Assembly (NCBI GenBank): GCA_019244745.1
Contig: JAFASF010000219.1
Location: 1 to 40,796 of the forward strand
Direction: 5' to 3'
Source of the DNA: Solirubrobacterales bacterium
GTDB taxonomy: Bacteria > Actinomycetota > Thermoleophilia > Solirubrobacterales > Solirubrobacteraceae
DNA: 40,796 nt
Part shown: one piece after another, positions 2,800 through 40,796 of the stretch
How positions within the stretch are numbered: the first letter of the stretch is position 1
How the letters are laid out: each line of letters begins with the position of its first letter
Made by a program: the position numbers and the translations under genes
Notes under the pieces: generated by a model
Database searches by the model: none
What the model was told of the DNA's origin: nothing
Seen by the model: only the letters and a program-made list of their open reading frames with translations

Positions 2800-3354
2800 A
2801 TGCATTTGCGCAAGCTCGCGGGAGCGCCGGCGACCGCTCTGGCCATCGCCGCGCTCGCCGGCTGCGGCTCGAGCGGGTCCTCCTCCAGCGTCACGCCCGC
2901 TGCCTACGTGAAGTCGATCTGCACAGCGGTGACGCCATTCGAAGCCGACGTCGTCAAGCGCAGCGACGAGCTCAACCTGACCACCCTCGCGAACGCCGAG
3001 CAGGGAAAGAAGGCGATCCAAGGATTTCTGTCGGCGGTCTCGGACGACACCGACCGGGCACTCTCCAAGCTCAAGGGGGCGGGCACCCCGAACGTCTCAA
3101 ACGGCAAGCAGCTCGCCGACACGGTCGTCTCCGCGTTCACGCAGCTGAAGGCCGCGGTGGGTCATGCACTGGCGCAGGCCGAAGCGCTGCCGACGAGCAG
3201 CCCCGAGGCGTTCAAGACGGCGGCGACCCACCTCGGTACCACCGTGCGCACCTCGATGAGCGGGATCGGGTCGAGCCTCGACAAGCTCAAGAGCCCCGAG
3301 CTCGAGAAGGCGGCCGCCAAGGAGCCCGCGTGCACGAGCCTCGGCGCGGCGTAA
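2800..3354 (+). CDS. predicted secreted lipoprotein, function unknown
   Basis: A 184-residue protein with a lipoprotein signal: basic start (MHLRK), hydrophobic stretch to residue 18, and lipobox ALAGC with the acylated Cys at 22, followed by a Ser/Gly-rich linker. The mature part is mainly predicted helix with regularly spaced hydrophobic residues and two further cysteines (in SICTAV near the start and EPACTS at the end) that could form a disulfide. No catalytic motif is recognised. It should sit on the outer face of the membrane. Its stop lies only 10 bases from that of the convergent flippase gene, so it borders the polysaccharide block and may act with it, but this is unproven. Confidence 0.82.
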   Translation: MHLRKLAGAPATALAIAALAGCGSSGSSSSVTPAAYVKSICTAVTPFEADVVKRSDELNLTTLANAEQGKKAIQGFLSAVSDDTDRALSKLKGAGTPNVSNGKQLADTVVSAFTQLKAAVGHALAQAEALPTSSPEAFKTAATHLGTTVRTSMSGIGSSLDKLKSPELEKAAAKEPACTSLGAA

Positions 3355-5448: not shown

Positions 5449-6626
5449 ACTCCGAGCGCCTCGCGGTCGGGCGGCCCCGTGGCGGGGCCGTCATCCGGAT
5501 GCCCGGAGGCCGCCGGCGCCCGCGATGCCGCCGGCGCCCCTGATGCTTCCGGCGCCCGCGATGCCGCCGGCGCCCGCGATGCCGCCGGCGCCCGCGACGC
5601 CGCCGGCGCCCGCGACGCTTCCCGGGGCCGCGATGCTTCCGCGGCCGCGGCCGCCCCCGGCTCGTAGTGGGAAGGTTGCACGCCAAGTTGCAGCTCGATC
5701 CGGCGGACGCGCTCGAACGTCCGTTGCGAGAGGGTGCGCTGGGCGTCGAGCAGGTCCCCGATCACGCCGAGCGCGCCGAGCAGCATCGCGCCGAAGAACA
5801 GCACCGCCCCGAGGATCAGGGACTGGACGTGCCCGGCCTTCCCCCCGTGGGCGACGAATAGGACCAGGAAGCGGATGAACAGAGCGAGCGCCGGGAGCCC
5901 CAGGATGAGGGCGCCCGTCCAGAACAGCTTCAGCGGCTCGTACTGGGCCCACACGCGGAAGATCGTGAGCGCGTTGCGCCGCACGTACGCGCCGACGGAC
6001 GGGAACAGTCGCGACTGCCGGGTCCTTGGATTCGTGCGGATCGGCACGTGGTCGACCGCCACCAGCAGCTTTCCCGCCTGGATGATCGTCTCGAGCGTGT
6101 AGGTGAACTTGGAGACGACCTGCATCTGCAGCGCTGCCTCGCGGTTGTAGGCGCGGAATCCGGACGTGGTGTCGGGAACCTCGGTCGAGGACGCCTGGCG
6201 AACCACCCACGATCCCACGCCTTGGAGGCGCTTCTTGGGCCACGAGAAGTCCTCGACGGTGTTCACGCGCCGGTCGCCGACGACCATGTCCGCCTCGCCC
6301 CGAAGGATCGGCTCCACGAGCTTGGGTATGTCCGCGCCGTCGTATTGATTGTCGGCATCGGTGTTGACGATCACATCCGCCCCGAGCTTCAGCCCGGCGT
6401 CGAGACCCGCCTGGAAGGCGGCCGCGAGCCCCTTGTGGTTGGTCAGCCGGACCACGTGGTCGACGCCGTGCTCGCGCGCGACCTCGACCGTCCGGTCGCT
6501 CGAGCCGTCATCGATGATCAGCCACTCGACCGCATCGACGCCAGGAACCTCGCGGGGCAGGTGGCCGAGCGTCAGCGGCAGCTGCTCCTCCTCGTCGAAG
6601 CACGGAATTTGGATGATCAGCTTCAT
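5445..6626 (-). CDS. membrane-anchored family 2 glycosyltransferase (polyprenyl-phosphate type)
   Basis: 393 residues from the ATG at 6626. A GTG at 6671 would add 15 residues with no family similarity. The GT-A domain shows the start MKLIIQIPCFDEEEQL, the nucleotide-sugar motif IIDDGSSD (38-45) and the DxD metal site NTDAD (DAD 90-92), as in dolichol/undecaprenyl-phosphate mannosyl- or glucosyltransferases. Two membrane segments follow at about 235-258 and 268-292, the GtrB-like layout. A short coiled region is followed by a low-complexity tail (335-374) of ASRAPA hexapeptide repeats. It likely makes a polyprenyl-phosphate sugar that a GT-C enzyme such as the divergent GT39 could use. Divergent from the GT39 gene across 92 bases. 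Confidence 0.88.
   Translation of the reverse strand: MKLIIQIPCFDEEEQLPLTLGHLPREVPGVDAVEWLIIDDGSSDRTVEVAREHGVDHVVRLTNHKGLAAAFQAGLDAGLKLGADVIVNTDADNQYDGADIPKLVEPILRGEADMVVGDRRVNTVEDFSWPKKRLQGVGSWVVRQASSTEVPDTTSGFRAYNREAALQMQVVSKFTYTLETIIQAGKLLVAVDHVPIRTNPRTRQSRLFPSVGAYVRRNALTIFRVWAQYEPLKLFWTGALILGLPALALFIRFLVLFVAHGGKAGHVQSLILGAVLFFGAMLLGALGVIGDLLDAQRTLSQRTFERVRRIELQLGVQPSHYEPGAAAAAEASRPREASRAPAASRAPAASRAPAASRAPEASGAPAASRAPAASGHPDDGPATGPPDREALGV
5509..5634. repeat. 18-bp tandem repeat (about 7 units) in the GT2 gene end
   Basis: Seven 18-base units, typical copy GCCGCCGGCGCCCGCGAT (5509-5526, 5563-5580), with the last unit decayed. On the minus strand it encodes the ASRAPA hexapeptide repeat at the GT2 C-terminus. 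It lies about 60 bases before the 4-base overlap with the methyltransferase gene. A multiple of 3, it can expand without shifting the frame. Confidence 0.9.
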
Positions 6627-10336: not shown

Positions 10337-11676
10337 GCAGCCGGACCGAGGCATCGTTCGCCACGATCGAGGAGGCGATCGAGGATCTCCGCCAGGGCAA
10401 GATGGTCGTCGTCTGCGACGACGAGAACCGAGAGAACGAGGGCGACCTGACGATGGCCGCGCAGTTTGTCACACCGGAGGCGATCAACTTCATGCGCAAG
10501 GAGGGCGGCGGCCTGATCTGCCTGGCGCTAACCCCCGAGCGCTGCGACGAGCTGGGGCTGGACCTGATGGCGGCCAAGAACGAGTCCGCGTTCGACACGG
10601 CGTTCACGGTCTCGATCGAGGCCCGCTCCGGAGTCAGCACCGGCATTTCCGCGGCCGATCGCGCGCGCACCATCCAGGTCGCGATCGACCCAGGCACGGC
10701 GCCGCGCGAGCTCGTCCAGCCGGGCCACATCTTCCCCTTGAAGGCCAAGGCCGGCGGGGTACTCGAGCGCGTCGGCCAGACCGAGGCCGCGGTGGACCTG
10801 GCGCGGCTGGCCGGCCTGATCCCGGCCGGGGTGATCTGCGAGATCATGAACGACGACGGGTCGATGGCGCGGGTGTCAGACCTCGAGCCCTACTGCGCCC
10901 GGCACGGCCTGAAGATGGTCACGGTCGCGGACCTCGTGGCGTACCGGCGCCGGCACGAGAAGCTCGTCGAGCGCGTGGTCTCGACCAGACTGCCGACCGT
11001 CTTCGGGGAGTTCGTCGCGGTCGGGTATCGCTCCCTGGTCGACAACAAACACCACGTCGCGCTCGTCAAAGGCCAGATCGCGGGCGCCGCCGACGTGTTG
11101 GTGCGAGTGCACTCGGAGTGCCTGACCGGCGACGTGTTCCACTCGCTGCGCTGCGACTGCGGCGAGCAGCTGGAGTCGGCGCTGGGGATGATCGAGCGGG
11201 AGGGCCGGGGCGTTCTGCTCTACCTGTCCCAGGAGGGCCGGGGCATCGGCCTGCTCAACAAGCTGCGCGCTTACAAGCTCCAGGAGGACGGGCTGGACAC
11301 CGTCGACGCCAACCTGCGCCTGGGCCTGCCGGCGGATCTGCGCGACTACGGCATCGGCGCCCAGATCCTCTCCGATCTCGGCCTGAGCACGATCCGGATC
11401 CTGACCAACAACCCCAAGAAGATCTCGGGCCTGGCCGGCTATGGGCTATCGGTAACCGACCAGATCCCGATTGCCCACCTTCCGAACCCGCACAACGAGG
11501 CCTACCTGCGCACCAAGCGCGAGAAGCTCGGGCACACGCTGCACCACCAGGGCCTGGCGCTCGACGAGGAGATGCTCCACGACGAGCATCAGCACGACCG
11601 GCAGGTCGCCGACGAGGCGCGCGAGCGGCAGGTTGCCGACGAGGAGCGCGAGCGGCAGGTTGCCGACGAGGCGTGA
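10333..11676 (+). CDS. ribBA: bifunctional 3,4-DHBP synthase / GTP cyclohydrolase II RibBA
   Basis: 447 residues. Residues 1-205 are the DHBP synthase domain: [11 protein letters not shown] (29-39) with the metal-binding Glu at 34, [12 protein letters not shown], and PGHIFPL. The metal-ligand His of E. coli RibB (H153) is replaced by Gln149 (VGQTEA), and the Arg before PGH is Gln129. The C-terminal GTP cyclohydrolase II keeps its zinc cysteines (263, 274, 276 in the ECLTG...RCDCG segment) and EGRGIGL. It supplies both branches of riboflavin synthesis. Past residue ~420 there is a charged tail of three RQVADEARE-like repeats with no family counterpart. The stop overlaps ribH as TGATG. Confidence 0.94.
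11599..11673 (+). repeat. 27-bp in-frame tandem repeat (2.8 units) at the ribBA 3' end
   Basis: Units at 11599-11625, 11626-11652 and a partial at 11653-11673, differing at only a few bases. Each codes for RQVADE(A/E)RE. The repeat ends directly at the TGATG overlap with ribH. The 27-base unit preserves the frame. Confidence 0.92.
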
Positions 11677-15926: not shown

Positions 15927-18041
15927 GTGAAAGTGTTCGCGTTCGGAGCGTCCCGGCCGTTGGAGCCCGACGAGCTGGAGGGTGCGCGCGTCCATTATCC
16001 CCGCCCCTCGGTGTTGGCTTCGCCCTTGAACCTCCAGGGGGGCAAGGCCGCGCAGGCGGCGCAGTCTCTCGGCCTCGGCACCGTGGGCGACCTCCTCGAG
16101 CATCTGCCGCGGGACCGCCGAGAGGCCCGAACGGTGGCCGAGCTCCAGCCGGGCGAAAGTGCCACCGTGGTCGTGGAGGTGCGAAGCATCACGTCGCGGC
16201 CGGTACGCCGGCGAGGGATGCGTCCCCTGGTAGAGGCGATGGTGGCGGACGCGACCGGTCCAATGAAGGCCACGTTCTTCAATCAACCGTGGCTCGTGCA
16301 GCGCTATCCCCCGGGCACGCGGCTCGTGCTGCACGGGAAGTTCGAGGCCCGCAACCGGTTCCGGGTGCAGGGCCATGCACCGACCAGCGAGGCGGTGGCA
16401 GGAGCCGGATCGGTGGCGCATTACCCGGCGAGCGAGGGGCTCTCGTCGACGCAGATCCTCGCGCTCGTGCGCGAGCATGCTCGCGCGCTGGGCGATGTCC
16501 TCGAGCCGCTGCCGGTTGCCGTCAGGTCTCATGAGCGGCTTCCCGACCGCGCGACGGCACTGACCGCCGTGCACTTTCCGGCGGGGGAGGAGGATCTGGA
16601 GCTGGGGCGGGGGCGGCTGGCGTTCGACGAGCTGCTCCTAGCCCAGCTGGCGCTGCTTCGCCGGCGCGCGACGCGCGGCCAGGCGAGCGCCCCGGTCCTA
16701 GATGGCGAGCCGGAGCTGACCGCAAGGTGGCTGTCCCAGATGGTTCCGTTCGAGTTGACCGGCGATCAGAGCCGGGCCCTCGAGGCCGTCGATGTCGATC
16801 TCGCACGGCCGCGCCCGATGCAGCGGTTGCTGATGGGGGAGGTGGGGTCGGGCAAGACGGTGGTGGCCCTGTACGCGATGCTCCGGGCCGTCGAGCACGG
16901 CTACCAGGGGGCACTGATGGCGCCGACGGAGACGCTGGCCGAACAGCACTTCGCCACGGTCCAGGGGCTGATGCCCGGTGAGGCCGTCGCCACCGGACTG
17001 CTGACGGGATCGACTCCCGGGCGGCGCAGGGCGGATCTGCTCGGCAAGCTCGGGAGTGGAGAACTGTCGCTCGTCGTAGGTACGCACGCGCTGATCGAGG
17101 ATGAGGTGGAGTTCTCGAGGCTCGCGGTCGCCGTGGTCGACGAGCAGCACAGGTTCGGGGTGCGTCAGCGGGCTGCGCTCGACGCGAAGGGACCGCTTGG
17201 GGAGAACCCTCACGTTCTGCACATGACCGCCACCCCGATCCCGCGGACGCTGGCGCTGCTCGGCTACGGGGATCTTGACTTCACGCTGCTGCGGGAGCTG
17301 CCGCTCGGGCGGGGGGCGATCCGGACGTTCGTAGCGTCGACCGAGCGCGAGCGCGCCCGCGCTTATGAACGAATCCGCGAGGAGCTGCGTGGGGGCCGGC
17401 AGGCGTTCCTGGTGTGCCCGCTCGTCGAGGAGTCCGAGCTGCTTCAGGCCCGGGCCGCAACCGCGGAGTTCGAGCGGCTCCGGGCCGGCGAGCTACGAGA
17501 TTTCGACGTCGTGCTGCTCCACGGTCAGCTGCGGCCGGCGGCCAAGCAGGCGGCGATGGCGGCGTTCGCCTCGGGCAGTGCCGACGTGTTGGTGGCGACG
17601 TCCGTGATCGAGGTGGGGATCGACGTGCCCAACGCGACCGTGATGCTGGTCGAAGACGCCGACCGCTACGGGATCTCGCAGCTGCACCAGCTCCGGGGGC
17701 GCATCGGGCGTGGCGAGCATCCGTCGCTGTGCGTGCTGTTCGGGCCCAAGGACTCGCCGCGCCTGCGCGCTCTGGCTACTCACACCGATGGCTTCGAGCT
17801 GGCGGAGATCGATCTGGAGCTCCGCGGCGAGGGCGAGCTGGTGGGGACGCGCCAGCACGGTCTGGCGCAGTTCCGTGTGGCCGAACTGCCGCGCGACATC
17901 GAGTGGCTGGAGCGCGCCCGGGTGCAAGCCGGGCGGATCTCGGATGAGGACTTGGCGCTGAGCCTGCCCGAGAACGCGCTGCTGGCGGAGGCGTTGCGCG
18001 ACGCGTACGGCTCCGAGGCCGAGGCGCCGATCCGGGCGTGA
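15927..18041 (+). CDS. recG: ATP-dependent DNA helicase RecG
   Basis: 704 residues from this GTG; GTG at 15876 (+17 residues) or 15933 are equally possible and the N-terminus is not conserved enough to choose. The wedge domain (about 38-230) starts with the conserved TVGDLLEHLPR. Helicase motifs follow: Walker A GEVGSGKT (304-311), GTHALIEDEV, DEQHRFG (405-411), MTATPIPRTLA, SVIEVGIDVPNA and QLRGRIGRG (motif VI). RecG reverses stalled replication forks and branch-migrates Holliday junctions. The stop TGA forms the first GTGA of a tandem-repeat ladder leading into rsmD. Confidence 0.93.
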   Translation: MKVFAFGASRPLEPDELEGARVHYPRPSVLASPLNLQGGKAAQAAQSLGLGTVGDLLEHLPRDRREARTVAELQPGESATVVVEVRSITSRPVRRRGMRPLVEAMVADATGPMKATFFNQPWLVQRYPPGTRLVLHGKFEARNRFRVQGHAPTSEAVAGAGSVAHYPASEGLSSTQILALVREHARALGDVLEPLPVAVRSHERLPDRATALTAVHFPAGEEDLELGRGRLAFDELLLAQLALLRRRATRGQASAPVLDGEPELTARWLSQMVPFELTGDQSRALEAVDVDLARPRPMQRLLMGEVGSGKTVVALYAMLRAVEHGYQGALMAPTETLAEQHFATVQGLMPGEAVATGLLTGSTPGRRRADLLGKLGSGELSLVVGTHALIEDEVEFSRLAVAVVDEQHRFGVRQRAALDAKGPLGENPHVLHMTATPIPRTLALLGYGDLDFTLLRELPLGRGAIRTFVASTERERARAYERIREELRGGRQAFLVCPLVEESELLQARAATAEFERLRAGELRDFDVVLLHGQLRPAAKQAAMAAFASGSADVLVATSVIEVGIDVPNATVMLVEDADRYGISQLHQLRGRIGRGEHPSLCVLFGPKDSPRLRALATHTDGFELAEIDLELRGEGELVGTRQHGLAQFRVAELPRDIEWLERARVQAGRISDEDLALSLPENALLAEALRDAYGSEAEAPIRA

Positions 18042-18124
18042 CGGCCGTGGCGGGCGGGGCGTGAGGGTCGTGGCAGGCCGGGCGTGAGGATCGTGGCAGG
18101 CCCGGCGTGAGGGTCGTGGCAGGC
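18038..18124 (+). repeat. 23-bp tandem repeat of the recG/rsmD stop-start junction (mini-ORF ladder)
   Basis: Units start at 18038, 18061, 18084 and 18107, each beginning GTGA and carrying GTGGC at the same offset. The first GTGA holds the recG stop, the last is the rsmD start. Copies 1-3 are 8-codon ORFs plus stop (18038-18064, 18061-18087, 18084-18110) whose TGA overlaps the next GTG. Copies 2-4 each encode the first residues of RsmD (VR(V/I)VAG). Read directly from the sequence. Confidence 0.95.
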
Positions 18125-35814: not shown

Positions 35815-36474
35815 ATGAGCACCTTGATCGACAGCCTGGAGCGCTCCCAGCTGCGCCGCGTGCCGGCATTCGACGCCGGCGATCGATTGCGTGTCCACTT
35901 TCAGGTGATCGAGGGGACGCGGCGCCGGACCCAGGTATTCGAAGGGGTGGTGATCAAGCGTCAGGGCCACGGCGCTCGGGAGACGTTCACGGTCCGCAAG
36001 CAGTCCTTCGGGGTCGGCGTGGAGCGCACGTTCCCTCTGCACTCTCCGAAGATCGAGCGCATCGAGGTGGCGGCTCGCGGCGACGTGCGCCGAGCCAAGC
36101 TCTACTACCTGCGCGGCCGGGTCGGCAAGCGTGCCCGAGTCCGGGAGCGGCGCTCCACCGGACCCGAGCAGGTGATCGAGCGCGAGCTGCTCTACGGCGC
36201 CGAGCCCGAGCCCGAGCCGAGCGAGTCGGAGGCGGACGCCGACGACGCGGGCGTCGAGGAATCGGCCGCCGGGGAGTCGGGTGCCGAGGAGTTGGCCGCC
36301 GAGGCGTTGGCCGCCGAAGACTCGCGCGGCGAGGAGTCGAGCCTGGAGGACTCGGGCGCTGAGGGCGCTGAGGAGCCGGGCGCCGAGCAGTCGGCTGAGC
36401 CGGCATCCCAGGCGGCGGCTGAGGACGCCGGCCCGGCGGCCGCGGACGGCCCCGCCGGCGAAGAGCAGGTGTGA
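35815..36474 (+). CDS. rplS: 50S ribosomal protein L19 with long acidic C-terminal extension
   Basis: 219 residues; usual L19 is about 115. Residues 1-115 are ordinary L19, with [10 protein letters not shown]-type core ([23 protein letters not shown] region), [18 protein letters not shown] and [14 protein letters not shown]. From about 123 to 219 the chain is Glu/Ala/Ser/Gly-rich with EES, GAEE and AAED repeats and almost no basic residues. L19 sits at the 30S-50S interface, and such a tail would reach out into solvent. GC-rich, repetitive DNA suggests growth by slippage. The stop overlaps lepB by 4 bases (GTGA). Confidence 0.94.
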
Positions 36475-39196: not shown

Positions 39197-40720
39197 ATGC
39201 TCGCTCGAGTGAGCACGTTCGCGATCGACGGCGTCGACCCCCGCCAGGTGTGGGTCGAGGTCGACATTCGCCAAGGCCTTCCGACGTTCACGATCGTCGG
39301 TCTCGGAGACACCGCGGTCCGTGAATCCCGCGACCGGATCCGCTCGGCGGTGCTGAACTCGGAATTCGAGTTCCCGACCAAGCACATCACGGCCAACCTG
39401 GCGCCGGCGTTCCTTCGCAAGGCCGGACCGGGATTCGACCTCGCGCTCGCGCTCGGCGTGCTCGCCGCCAGCGGTCAGATCCCCGTGCAGGCCCTCCGCT
39501 CCGTGGCGGTCTTCGGTGAGCTGGCGCTCGGCGGCGAACTGCGCGACTCTCCCGGGGCGCTGGCGGTGGCGGAGGGCGCCCGCAGCGCCGGCCTGCGACT
39601 GTTGATCGTGCCGGCGGAGCGGGCGCGGGAGGCCGCCCTCGTCCGCGAGCTCCGGATCGCCGGGGTCGGCACGTTGCGCGAGGCGGCGGATGTCGTGCGG
39701 GGCGCCGTCCCGCCGCCCCCGCCCGCGGAGGAGCCTCGAGTCGATCGCCACGACGCGGACGGGCCCGACCTAGCCGATGTTCGTGGTCACGCCGCCCCGG
39801 TGCTGGCGGTGCAGATCGCGGCGGCGGGAGGTCACAACCTGCTCCTGGAGGGCGCGCCAGGGACGGGCAAGACGATGCTCGCGCGGCGCATTCCGTCGAT
39901 CCTGCCGCCGATGACCCATGCCGAGGCGATCGCGGTGACCCGGATCCACAGCGTCGCCGGCCTTCACACCGACGGGTTGATCACGCAGCGCCCGTTCCGC
40001 GCCCCGCACCATACGATTTCACCGTCGGGCCTCGTGGGGGGCGGAGCGGTCCCGAGGGCGGGCGAGGCGACGCTGGCAAACCAGGGCGTGCTGTTCCTGG
40101 ACGAGCTGTCTGAGTTCCAGCGTCCGACCCTCGACGCGCTGCGTCAGCCGCTCGAGGACGGGCACGTGACGATCGTCCGCGGCCAACGCGCGCTGGTCTT
40201 TCCGACCCGGTTCATGCTCGTAGCCGCGACCAACCCCTGTCCATGCGGGTTCGCCGGCACGGGAGATCGCTGCCAATGCGGGGAGGCGGATCTGCGCCGC
40301 CACCGCCGGCGGCTGAGCGGCCCGCTGCTCGACCGCATGGATCTCCTCGTGAACATCGAGCGGCCGACCGAGTCGGAACTGCGAGCACCGCCGGTCACGT
40401 CCTCGGCGCGCGCTCGAGACCGGGTCGGGGCTGCTCGGGAACGCCAGACAGCGCGGCTGAAGCGCTCCACCGCCTCCTGCAACGCGGAAATGGACTCGCG
40501 TCTCATCGCCAGCCACGTTCGGCTCGAAGAATCGGCCGAGCTCGCGCTGGCCCGCGCGTACTCCGCCGGTGCCATCAGCGCTCGAGGGCGGCACCGCGTG
40601 CTCCGGGTGGCGCGGACGATCGCCGACCTCGAGGCTCGAGACAGCGTTGGGCATGCCGACGTTCTGACGGCGTTCAGCCTGCGCCAGCGCGGCTTCCCCG
40701 ACGAGGCGCTCGCGGCATGA
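39197..40720 (+). CDS. comM: Mg-chelatase-like AAA+ protein ComM (YifB)
   Basis: 507 residues from ATG 39197, matching the family start MLARVSTFAIDG; longer frames upstream are unlikely. An N-terminal Lon-protease-like domain (about 1-175) is followed by the AAA+ module: Walker A EGAPGTGKTMLA, HHTISPSGLVGGG, Walker B FLDELSEFQ and arginine-rich sensor region. The cysteine cluster CPCGFAGTGDRCQCG is also typical. ComM is a hexameric helicase that extends branch migration during natural transformation. yraN is divergent, and its stop is part of a duplicated ATGA junction leading into the next gene. Confidence 0.94.
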   Translation: MLARVSTFAIDGVDPRQVWVEVDIRQGLPTFTIVGLGDTAVRESRDRIRSAVLNSEFEFPTKHITANLAPAFLRKAGPGFDLALALGVLAASGQIPVQALRSVAVFGELALGGELRDSPGALAVAEGARSAGLRLLIVPAERAREAALVRELRIAGVGTLREAADVVRGAVPPPPPAEEPRVDRHDADGPDLADVRGHAAPVLAVQIAAAGGHNLLLEGAPGTGKTMLARRIPSILPPMTHAEAIAVTRIHSVAGLHTDGLITQRPFRAPHHTISPSGLVGGGAVPRAGEATLANQGVLFLDELSEFQRPTLDALRQPLEDGHVTIVRGQRALVFPTRFMLVAATNPCPCGFAGTGDRCQCGEADLRRHRRRLSGPLLDRMDLLVNIERPTESELRAPPVTSSARARDRVGAARERQTARLKRSTASCNAEMDSRLIASHVRLEESAELALARAYSAGAISARGRHRVLRVARTIADLEARDSVGHADVLTAFSLRQRGFPDEALAA

Positions 40721-40776
40721 CCGCCGACGAGGTGCACGCGGCATGACCGCCGACGAGGCGCACGCGGCATGACCGC
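40699..40776 (+). repeat. 26-bp tandem repeat of the comM/downstream stop-start junction (mini-ORF ladder)
   Basis: Three units (40699-40724, 40725-40750, 40751-40776), each containing the end of comM (GACGAGG...GCGGC) and the start ATGACCGC. ATGA occurs at 40717, 40743 and 40769. ORFs 40717-40746 and 40743-40772 have nine codons plus stop, and each TGA overlaps the next ATG. The third ATG opens the gene that leaves the window. Confidence 0.95.
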
Positions 40777-40796
40777 CGACGCACCCCGCGATGCCC
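40769..40796 (+). CDS. start of next gene, possibly dprA (only 9 codons)
   Basis: Starts MTADAPRDA and runs out of the window. Too short to identify. dprA/smf (DNA-processing protein) follows comM in many actinobacteria, so it is the likely identity from gene order only. The first four residues, MTAD, are repeated by the two mini-ORFs before it. Confidence 0.35.

Follow-up and report, generated by a model that had tools for sequence, protein, structure and literature searches.

The 3' end of comM carries a 26-bp tandem array that probably arose through slippage duplications at a short microhomology, and that can be regarded as a tolerated minisatellite for which no dedicated function is needed. 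The resulting ladder of overlapping frames cleanly illustrates how a duplication can rebuild its own overlap. The window, that is, the whole stretch of 40,796 nt that was analysed, is one of 463 contigs in the assembly (C111), and it ends at position 40796, 15 nt past the comM array. TRF described this array with a period of 26, 3.2 copies, 94% matches, zero indels and a score of 154. The best score for any period of at least 9 was 64 in 25 windows simulated with a first-order Markov model, so that the head-to-tail units at the comM junction exceed chance. The comM stop codon occupies 40718-40720, and ATG codons begin at 40717, 40743 and 40769, each of them overlapping a TGA as ATGA. The junction is thus read as comM (ending in DEALAA and a stop), MTADEVHAA (stop), MTADEAHAA (stop) and MTADAPRDA..., with an ATGA at every step. 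The copies are not identical: CTC is replaced by CAC in copies 2 and 3, and GCG by GTG in copy 2 alone. The sequence-only reading had described a 26-base unit repeated across the comM end, with the ATGA-linked mini-ORFs MTADEVHAA and MTADEAHAA, and both TRF and the frames confirmed that description.

Table 1. Features of the comM junction and of the second ladder in the window, all on the forward strand.
Feature	Coordinates	Strand	Basis
recG/rsmD ladder, 23-bp unit x 4.0, three GTGA-linked mini-ORFs	18032..18124	+	TRF, ORFs, Pfam
comM/yifB, YifB-family Mg-chelatase-like AAA ATPase, 507 aa, ending ...DEALAA and a stop	39197..40720	+	TIGR00368 and ORF
Tandem array, 26-bp unit x 3.2, across the comM stop and the start of the next gene	40698..40781	+	TRF, score 154
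Left CCGACG of the proposed slippage microhomology, within the comM tail	40698..40703	+	6-bp identity at shift 78
Mini-ORF 1, MTADEVHAA and a stop, 9 codons, ATGA overlap with the comM stop	40717..40746	+	ORF reading
GAGGTG, Shine-Dalgarno-like site in copy 2, 8 nt before a start codon	40729..40734	+	Duplex energy
Mini-ORF 2, MTADEAHAA and a stop, 9 codons, ATGA overlap with mini-ORF 1	40743..40772	+	ORF reading
Start of the downstream gene, MTADAPRDA..., probably dprA	40769..40796	+	Synteny; cut by contig end
Right CCGACG of the proposed microhomology, within the head of the downstream gene and in matching codon phase	40776..40781	+	6-bp identity

The ComM protein scored 500.2 bits against NCBIfam TIGR00368 (cut-off 362.4), which is above the curated threshold for the YifB/ComM family, and 375.5 bits against the narrower equivalog PRK09862.1, below that model's own cut-off of 530. 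Among the comM matches listed, the best named ones belong to Solirubrobacterales, Solirubrobacteraceae and 'Actinomycetes' MAGs, so that the window probably derives from an uncultured bacterium within or close to Solirubrobacteraceae. comM was detected in 75 of 81 genomes, and the junction loci of 29 relatives were read. In every one of the 29, a dprA frame with a C..C...WL-type start directly follows comM. PF02481 (DNA recombination-mediator protein A) was confirmed in all 28 of these frames that were scanned (176-222 bits, cut-off 29.6, ORFs of at least 200 codons); the dprA frame of the 29th relative (L030) is broken by a stop. By this synteny the next gene after comM in the window is probably dprA as well, only 28 nt of which are visible before the contig end. 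No second strong match to 40690-40796 was found in the assembly among the 40 of 114 candidates that were scored, a search that a contig starting beyond the break would escape. The one strong DprA-domain match, on C226, was rejected as the missing continuation, being a separate gene with no comM beside it, and a weak DprA match on C463 was rejected for its different gene context. The DprA-domain gene on C226 (L042, G000:C226, 1204-2907) is followed by a phosphoribosyltransferase-like ORF, named from its translation; it lies apart from comM and possibly belongs to a separate system.

In the relatives, the junction is single-copy. comM and dprA overlap by the 4-nt RTGA in 22 of the 29 and by 1 nt in four, the remaining three having another arrangement, and no ladder was found at comM/dprA in any of the 29 read. 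Some TRF array occurs near the junction in five of them (scores 31-85), and only the 12-bp array of L032 (G032) spans the overlap. A DNA search of 28 same-genus genomes gave matches in 21, the own genome included, and no relative's alignment extended past position 40730. The comM array looks specific to this lineage. Since the nearest full-length ComM relative is only 77% identical (a fragment is 79% identical), the age of the array has no tight bound. In L009 (G016), an array with repeats like GTGTGAGAATCCTGCGCAGTCCCGG lies upstream of comM, from about position 3061 onward.

The ends of the array suggest how it probably formed. The 6-bp word CCGACG is found exactly at both ends, and the shift of 78 between its two occurrences corresponds to 26 bp in the inferred single-copy ancestor. 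Replication slippage between these words, one in the comM tail and the other in the downstream head, would duplicate exactly 26 bp, and the segment lying over the ATGA by which comM and (probably) dprA overlapped in the ancestor would have been duplicated in tandem at least twice. Three codons ahead of its stop, comM has CTC (Leu), a position at which the relatives have Leu in 13 of 29 and His in 0 of 29. The CAC of copies 2 and 3 would have arisen in one duplicate that was itself later duplicated, which points to a stepwise history of two duplications or more. As for the unit length of 2 mod 3, the ATGA shifts the downstream frame by one base, which places words of the same codon phase 2 mod 3 apart. 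Given that phase and a 4-nt overlap, each copy re-creates the ATGA together with an open frame of nine codons. Against the slippage account, the second ladder of the window, at recG/rsmD, ends today without a comparable microhomology (1 bp beyond four whole units), so that the mechanism is directly visible in only one of the two cases.

The phase of such microhomologies was analysed at 164 four-nt-overlap junctions, 116 from the own genome and 48 from G011, excluding the window's two ladders and retaining the weak junction arrays L185 and L219 in the count. Tail/head matches 2 mod 3 apart amounted to 184 of 413 at a length of at least 5 bp, 68 of 137 at 6 bp or more, 27 of 45 at 7 bp or more and 15 of 22 at 8 bp or more, a same-phase share of 50-68% for 6-8 bp matches. 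After codon shuffling of tails and heads the 2 mod 3 share was 45, 48, 53 and 54% at the same four thresholds, and in the base-shuffled null it was 33-35%. The codon-phase bias in this 67% GC genome accounts for most of the 2-mod-3 preference; at 7 and 8 bp or more the observed shares (60% and 68%) lie somewhat above the codon-shuffled ones (53% and 54%), on only 45 and 22 matches. Given the phase bias, the chance that two of two arrays are 2 mod 3 is about 0.23-0.47, not 0.11. In a GC-rich genome, the codon-phase bias and the ATGA frame offset make junction duplications compatible with coupling more often than one time in three. Together they provide a concrete null model against reading function into ladders, with a testable prediction on repeat periods at overlapping genes.

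The frequency of such arrays was estimated in an own-genome sample of 1,131,252 bases (1.13 Mb, 23% of the genome), in which a simple codon-score caller without a ribosome-site model found 1006 genes, 611 same-strand neighbours and 118 four-nt overlaps. Two strong arrays (score of at least 60) lie on 4-nt overlaps, recG/rsmD (23 bp) and comM (26 bp), both in the window, the very stretch from which the question had come; the comM array was filed under the "stop" class, its next gene being off the contig. The other 120 stretches of the sample contain no strong array that covers both a called stop and a co-directed called start. From array density, 0.31 (inside-gene rate) to 1.63 (outside-gene rate) arrays are expected on 4-nt overlaps at a score of at least 60, and 0.18-1.31 at a score of at least 100. 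The number of arrays found is about that produced by random tandem duplication, with an excess only at the lower rates: the two observed exceed the 0.31 or 0.18 expected at the inside-gene background, if that rate applies. The sequence-only reading had named a genome-wide count equal to that from random tandem duplication as what would refute it, and these figures (2 found in 1.13 Mb, 0.3-1.6 expected) largely speak against the reading. The same reading had taken the two ladders within 23 kb as one architecture that arose twice. Their independent origin holds, as they differ in sequence, unit length and genes, and no ladder was seen at the same junctions in the relatives read; a special architecture, beyond chance and codon-phase bias, is not supported, and the proximity of the two looks like a local coincidence. 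The idea that RTGA-linked mini-ORFs are unusual in themselves was also rejected: in the same sample, 22 chains that contain one or more mini-ORFs lead into a called gene, the recG/rsmD ladder included, versus 147 direct RTGA junctions.

Pfam supports RecG and an RsmD-type family at the 18032-18124 ladder. Outside the own genome 56 rsmD places were found, and the 20 that were read, from 19 same-genus genomes, include nine with a plain 4-nt overlap and none with the 23-bp ladder. In L283 (G005), an independent 27-bp x 3.9 array lies between the recG stop and rsmD, in the rsmD frame; it was rejected as junction-spanning, as the recG frame stops before the array. Weak arrays that do span a junction have units of 17 bp (L185, own genome), 18 bp (L219, G011) and 12 bp (L032, comM/dprA of G032). 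A further array, at comM/dprA of a named MAG (L051), is ambiguous between 22 and 23 bp, TRF giving a period of 22 with an indel and comM reading through it. This locus was drawn from 54 GC-rich loci out of 109, the rest falling below the GC cut-off and three having been removed as duplicates. All samples together thus hold six junction-spanning arrays, three of 2 mod 3 (23, 26 and the weak 17), two weak ones of 0 mod 3 (12 and 18) and the ambiguous one. A unit length of 2 mod 3 was rejected as a rule on account of the 12-bp (L032) and 18-bp (L219) arrays, which are 0 mod 3, and of the ambiguous L051.

The ladder probably keeps the translational coupling of the downstream gene, as terminating ribosomes would be handed from comM via the two mini-ORFs to that gene. 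Of every 26-bp copy, 23 nt belong to the comM tail or repeat it, and they include the SD-like GAGG. With a generic anti-SD, the duplex energy of the SD-like site is -9.5 kcal/mol in copy 2 (GAGGTG) and -5.9 kcal/mol in copies 1 and 3 (GAGGCG). Strict coupling was reported in 13 of 14 overlapping pairs tested by Huber et al. 2019 (PMC6728339), and the upstream gene's last 15 nt suffice for coupling in reporter tests, according to PMC10666635. By analogy with such pairs, in which coupling was measured in E. coli and Haloferax, ribosomes should be able to reinitiate at every step of the ladder, though some may be lost each time.

Selection on this hand-off offers a different explanation of the ladder, one that is possible but that we consider doubtful. 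Duplications would arise in all phases, and those that survive would either preserve the hand-off (2 mod 3) or lengthen the downstream protein within its frame (0 mod 3); the ladder would then be a scar filtered by purifying selection, the downstream gene needing coupling. If a 26-bp duplication lacked linked frames, the next start would lie 22-48 nt beyond the stop of comM, and coupling would probably be broken. PMC10666635 describes coupling as largely or wholly lost at such distances in E. coli and Haloferax: it was nearly abolished in both when the stop was moved about 20 nt away, and a 38 nt stop shift in E. coli caused an 80-90% loss for two pairs and a complete loss for one. In the genome sample, the two strong arrays that sit on 4-nt overlaps have units of 2 mod 3, and the other seven strong arrays (score of at least 60), at a gene end without a called start, are distributed as three of 0 mod 3, four of 1 mod 3 and none of 2 mod 3. 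Among the six junction-spanning arrays, only the ambiguous L051 (period 22, indel) could be 1 mod 3. However, the counts are tiny (three 2 mod 3, two weak 0 mod 3, one ambiguous), and the codon-phase mutational bias in itself leads one to expect about half of them at 2 mod 3 and only 20-24% at 1 mod 3 (codon-shuffled, at least 6 bp).

Two further arrays show that the mini-ORF architecture exists without a partner gene to couple. In L133:980-1072 (G000:C10), four copies of a 23-bp unit form GTGA/ATGA-linked mini-ORFs ahead of a RidA-family gene (PF01042), and the upstream neighbour of that gene is divergent. In L218:19182-19251 (G011), 3.5 copies of a 20-bp unit, with a GTGA-linked mini-ORF, lie downstream of a gene of the ClpB type (PF10431), whose neighbour is convergent. 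The unit of L133, read by eye, contains the inverted repeat CGCCCGC-AAGGA-GCGGGCG. On the minus strand of L138 (G000:C15), at about 6651 of the reverse complement, degenerate GTGAG-containing units follow a gene stop with spacings of 20, 23 and then longer, and there is no called gene beyond.

A wider generalization, which we regard as unlikely, is that duplications of gene junctions self-heal via codon-phased microhomology (2 mod 3) in genomes that are GC-rich and abound in 4-nt overlaps, giving translational relays, chains of mini-cistrons that would keep downstream expression and tune it by copy number. If true, these relays would form a general class of minisatellite, of which we have met no description so far. 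Very unlikely is the more specific proposal of a regulatory attenuator or phase-variable rheostat, in which the number of units sets the downstream output as each termination-reinitiation step loses ribosomes. Reinitiation at each step is indeed of limited efficiency, the stronger SD-like site lies in the middle copy, and tandem repeats readily change copy number; but the ladder is absent from the 29 relatives read, dprA is presumably not a typical phase-variable gene, recG/rsmD has a matching architecture, and similar arrays occur without a co-directed partner gene. An assembly artefact at the contig end is scarcely credible: although the contig stops 15 nt beyond the array and its continuation was not found among the 40 of 114 candidates scored in the assembly, the substitutions between copies, with their stepwise history, are not expected from an assembly loop, an equivalent array (recG/rsmD) lies inside the contig, and strong arrays are without clear enrichment at contig ends (of 226 ends, 3 have one within 60 bp, versus about 1.5 expected, a rough estimate).

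Bacterial minisatellites, or VNTRs, form by slipped-strand mispairing. The comM array resembles them in its short head-to-tail units, few substitutions and flanking microhomology, and in not being seen in the relatives read; it differs in that it spans two overlapping frames, its unit length keeping the frame open in every copy. Mini-cistron or bicistronic leader designs use a short ORF to bring ribosomes to a gene, and there too the stop of the short ORF overlaps the next start, whereas the comM ladder is natural, serial and derived from a duplicated junction. The coupled pairs with a 4-nt ATGA/GTGA overlap described in PMC6728339 and PMC10666635 share with it the -4 overlap, here present at each step, and an SD-like site in the upstream tail. 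The junction of comM is, however, repeated via 9-codon mini-ORFs copied from gene ends, and no such repeat appears in the accessible parts of these two papers. None of the literature matches listed gave a precedent for a stop/start overlap that is repeated in tandem.

Three other arrays of the window lie within genes. A ribBA-type gene (PF00926 and PF00925) carries a 27-bp x 2.9 in-frame array at its 3' end (11595-11673), before a TGATG junction; this array resembles the one at comM, with 77% over 66 nt. A 15-bp x 9.1 array at 36228-36364 and an 18/54-bp compound array at 5501-5661 are each found within a called coding frame.
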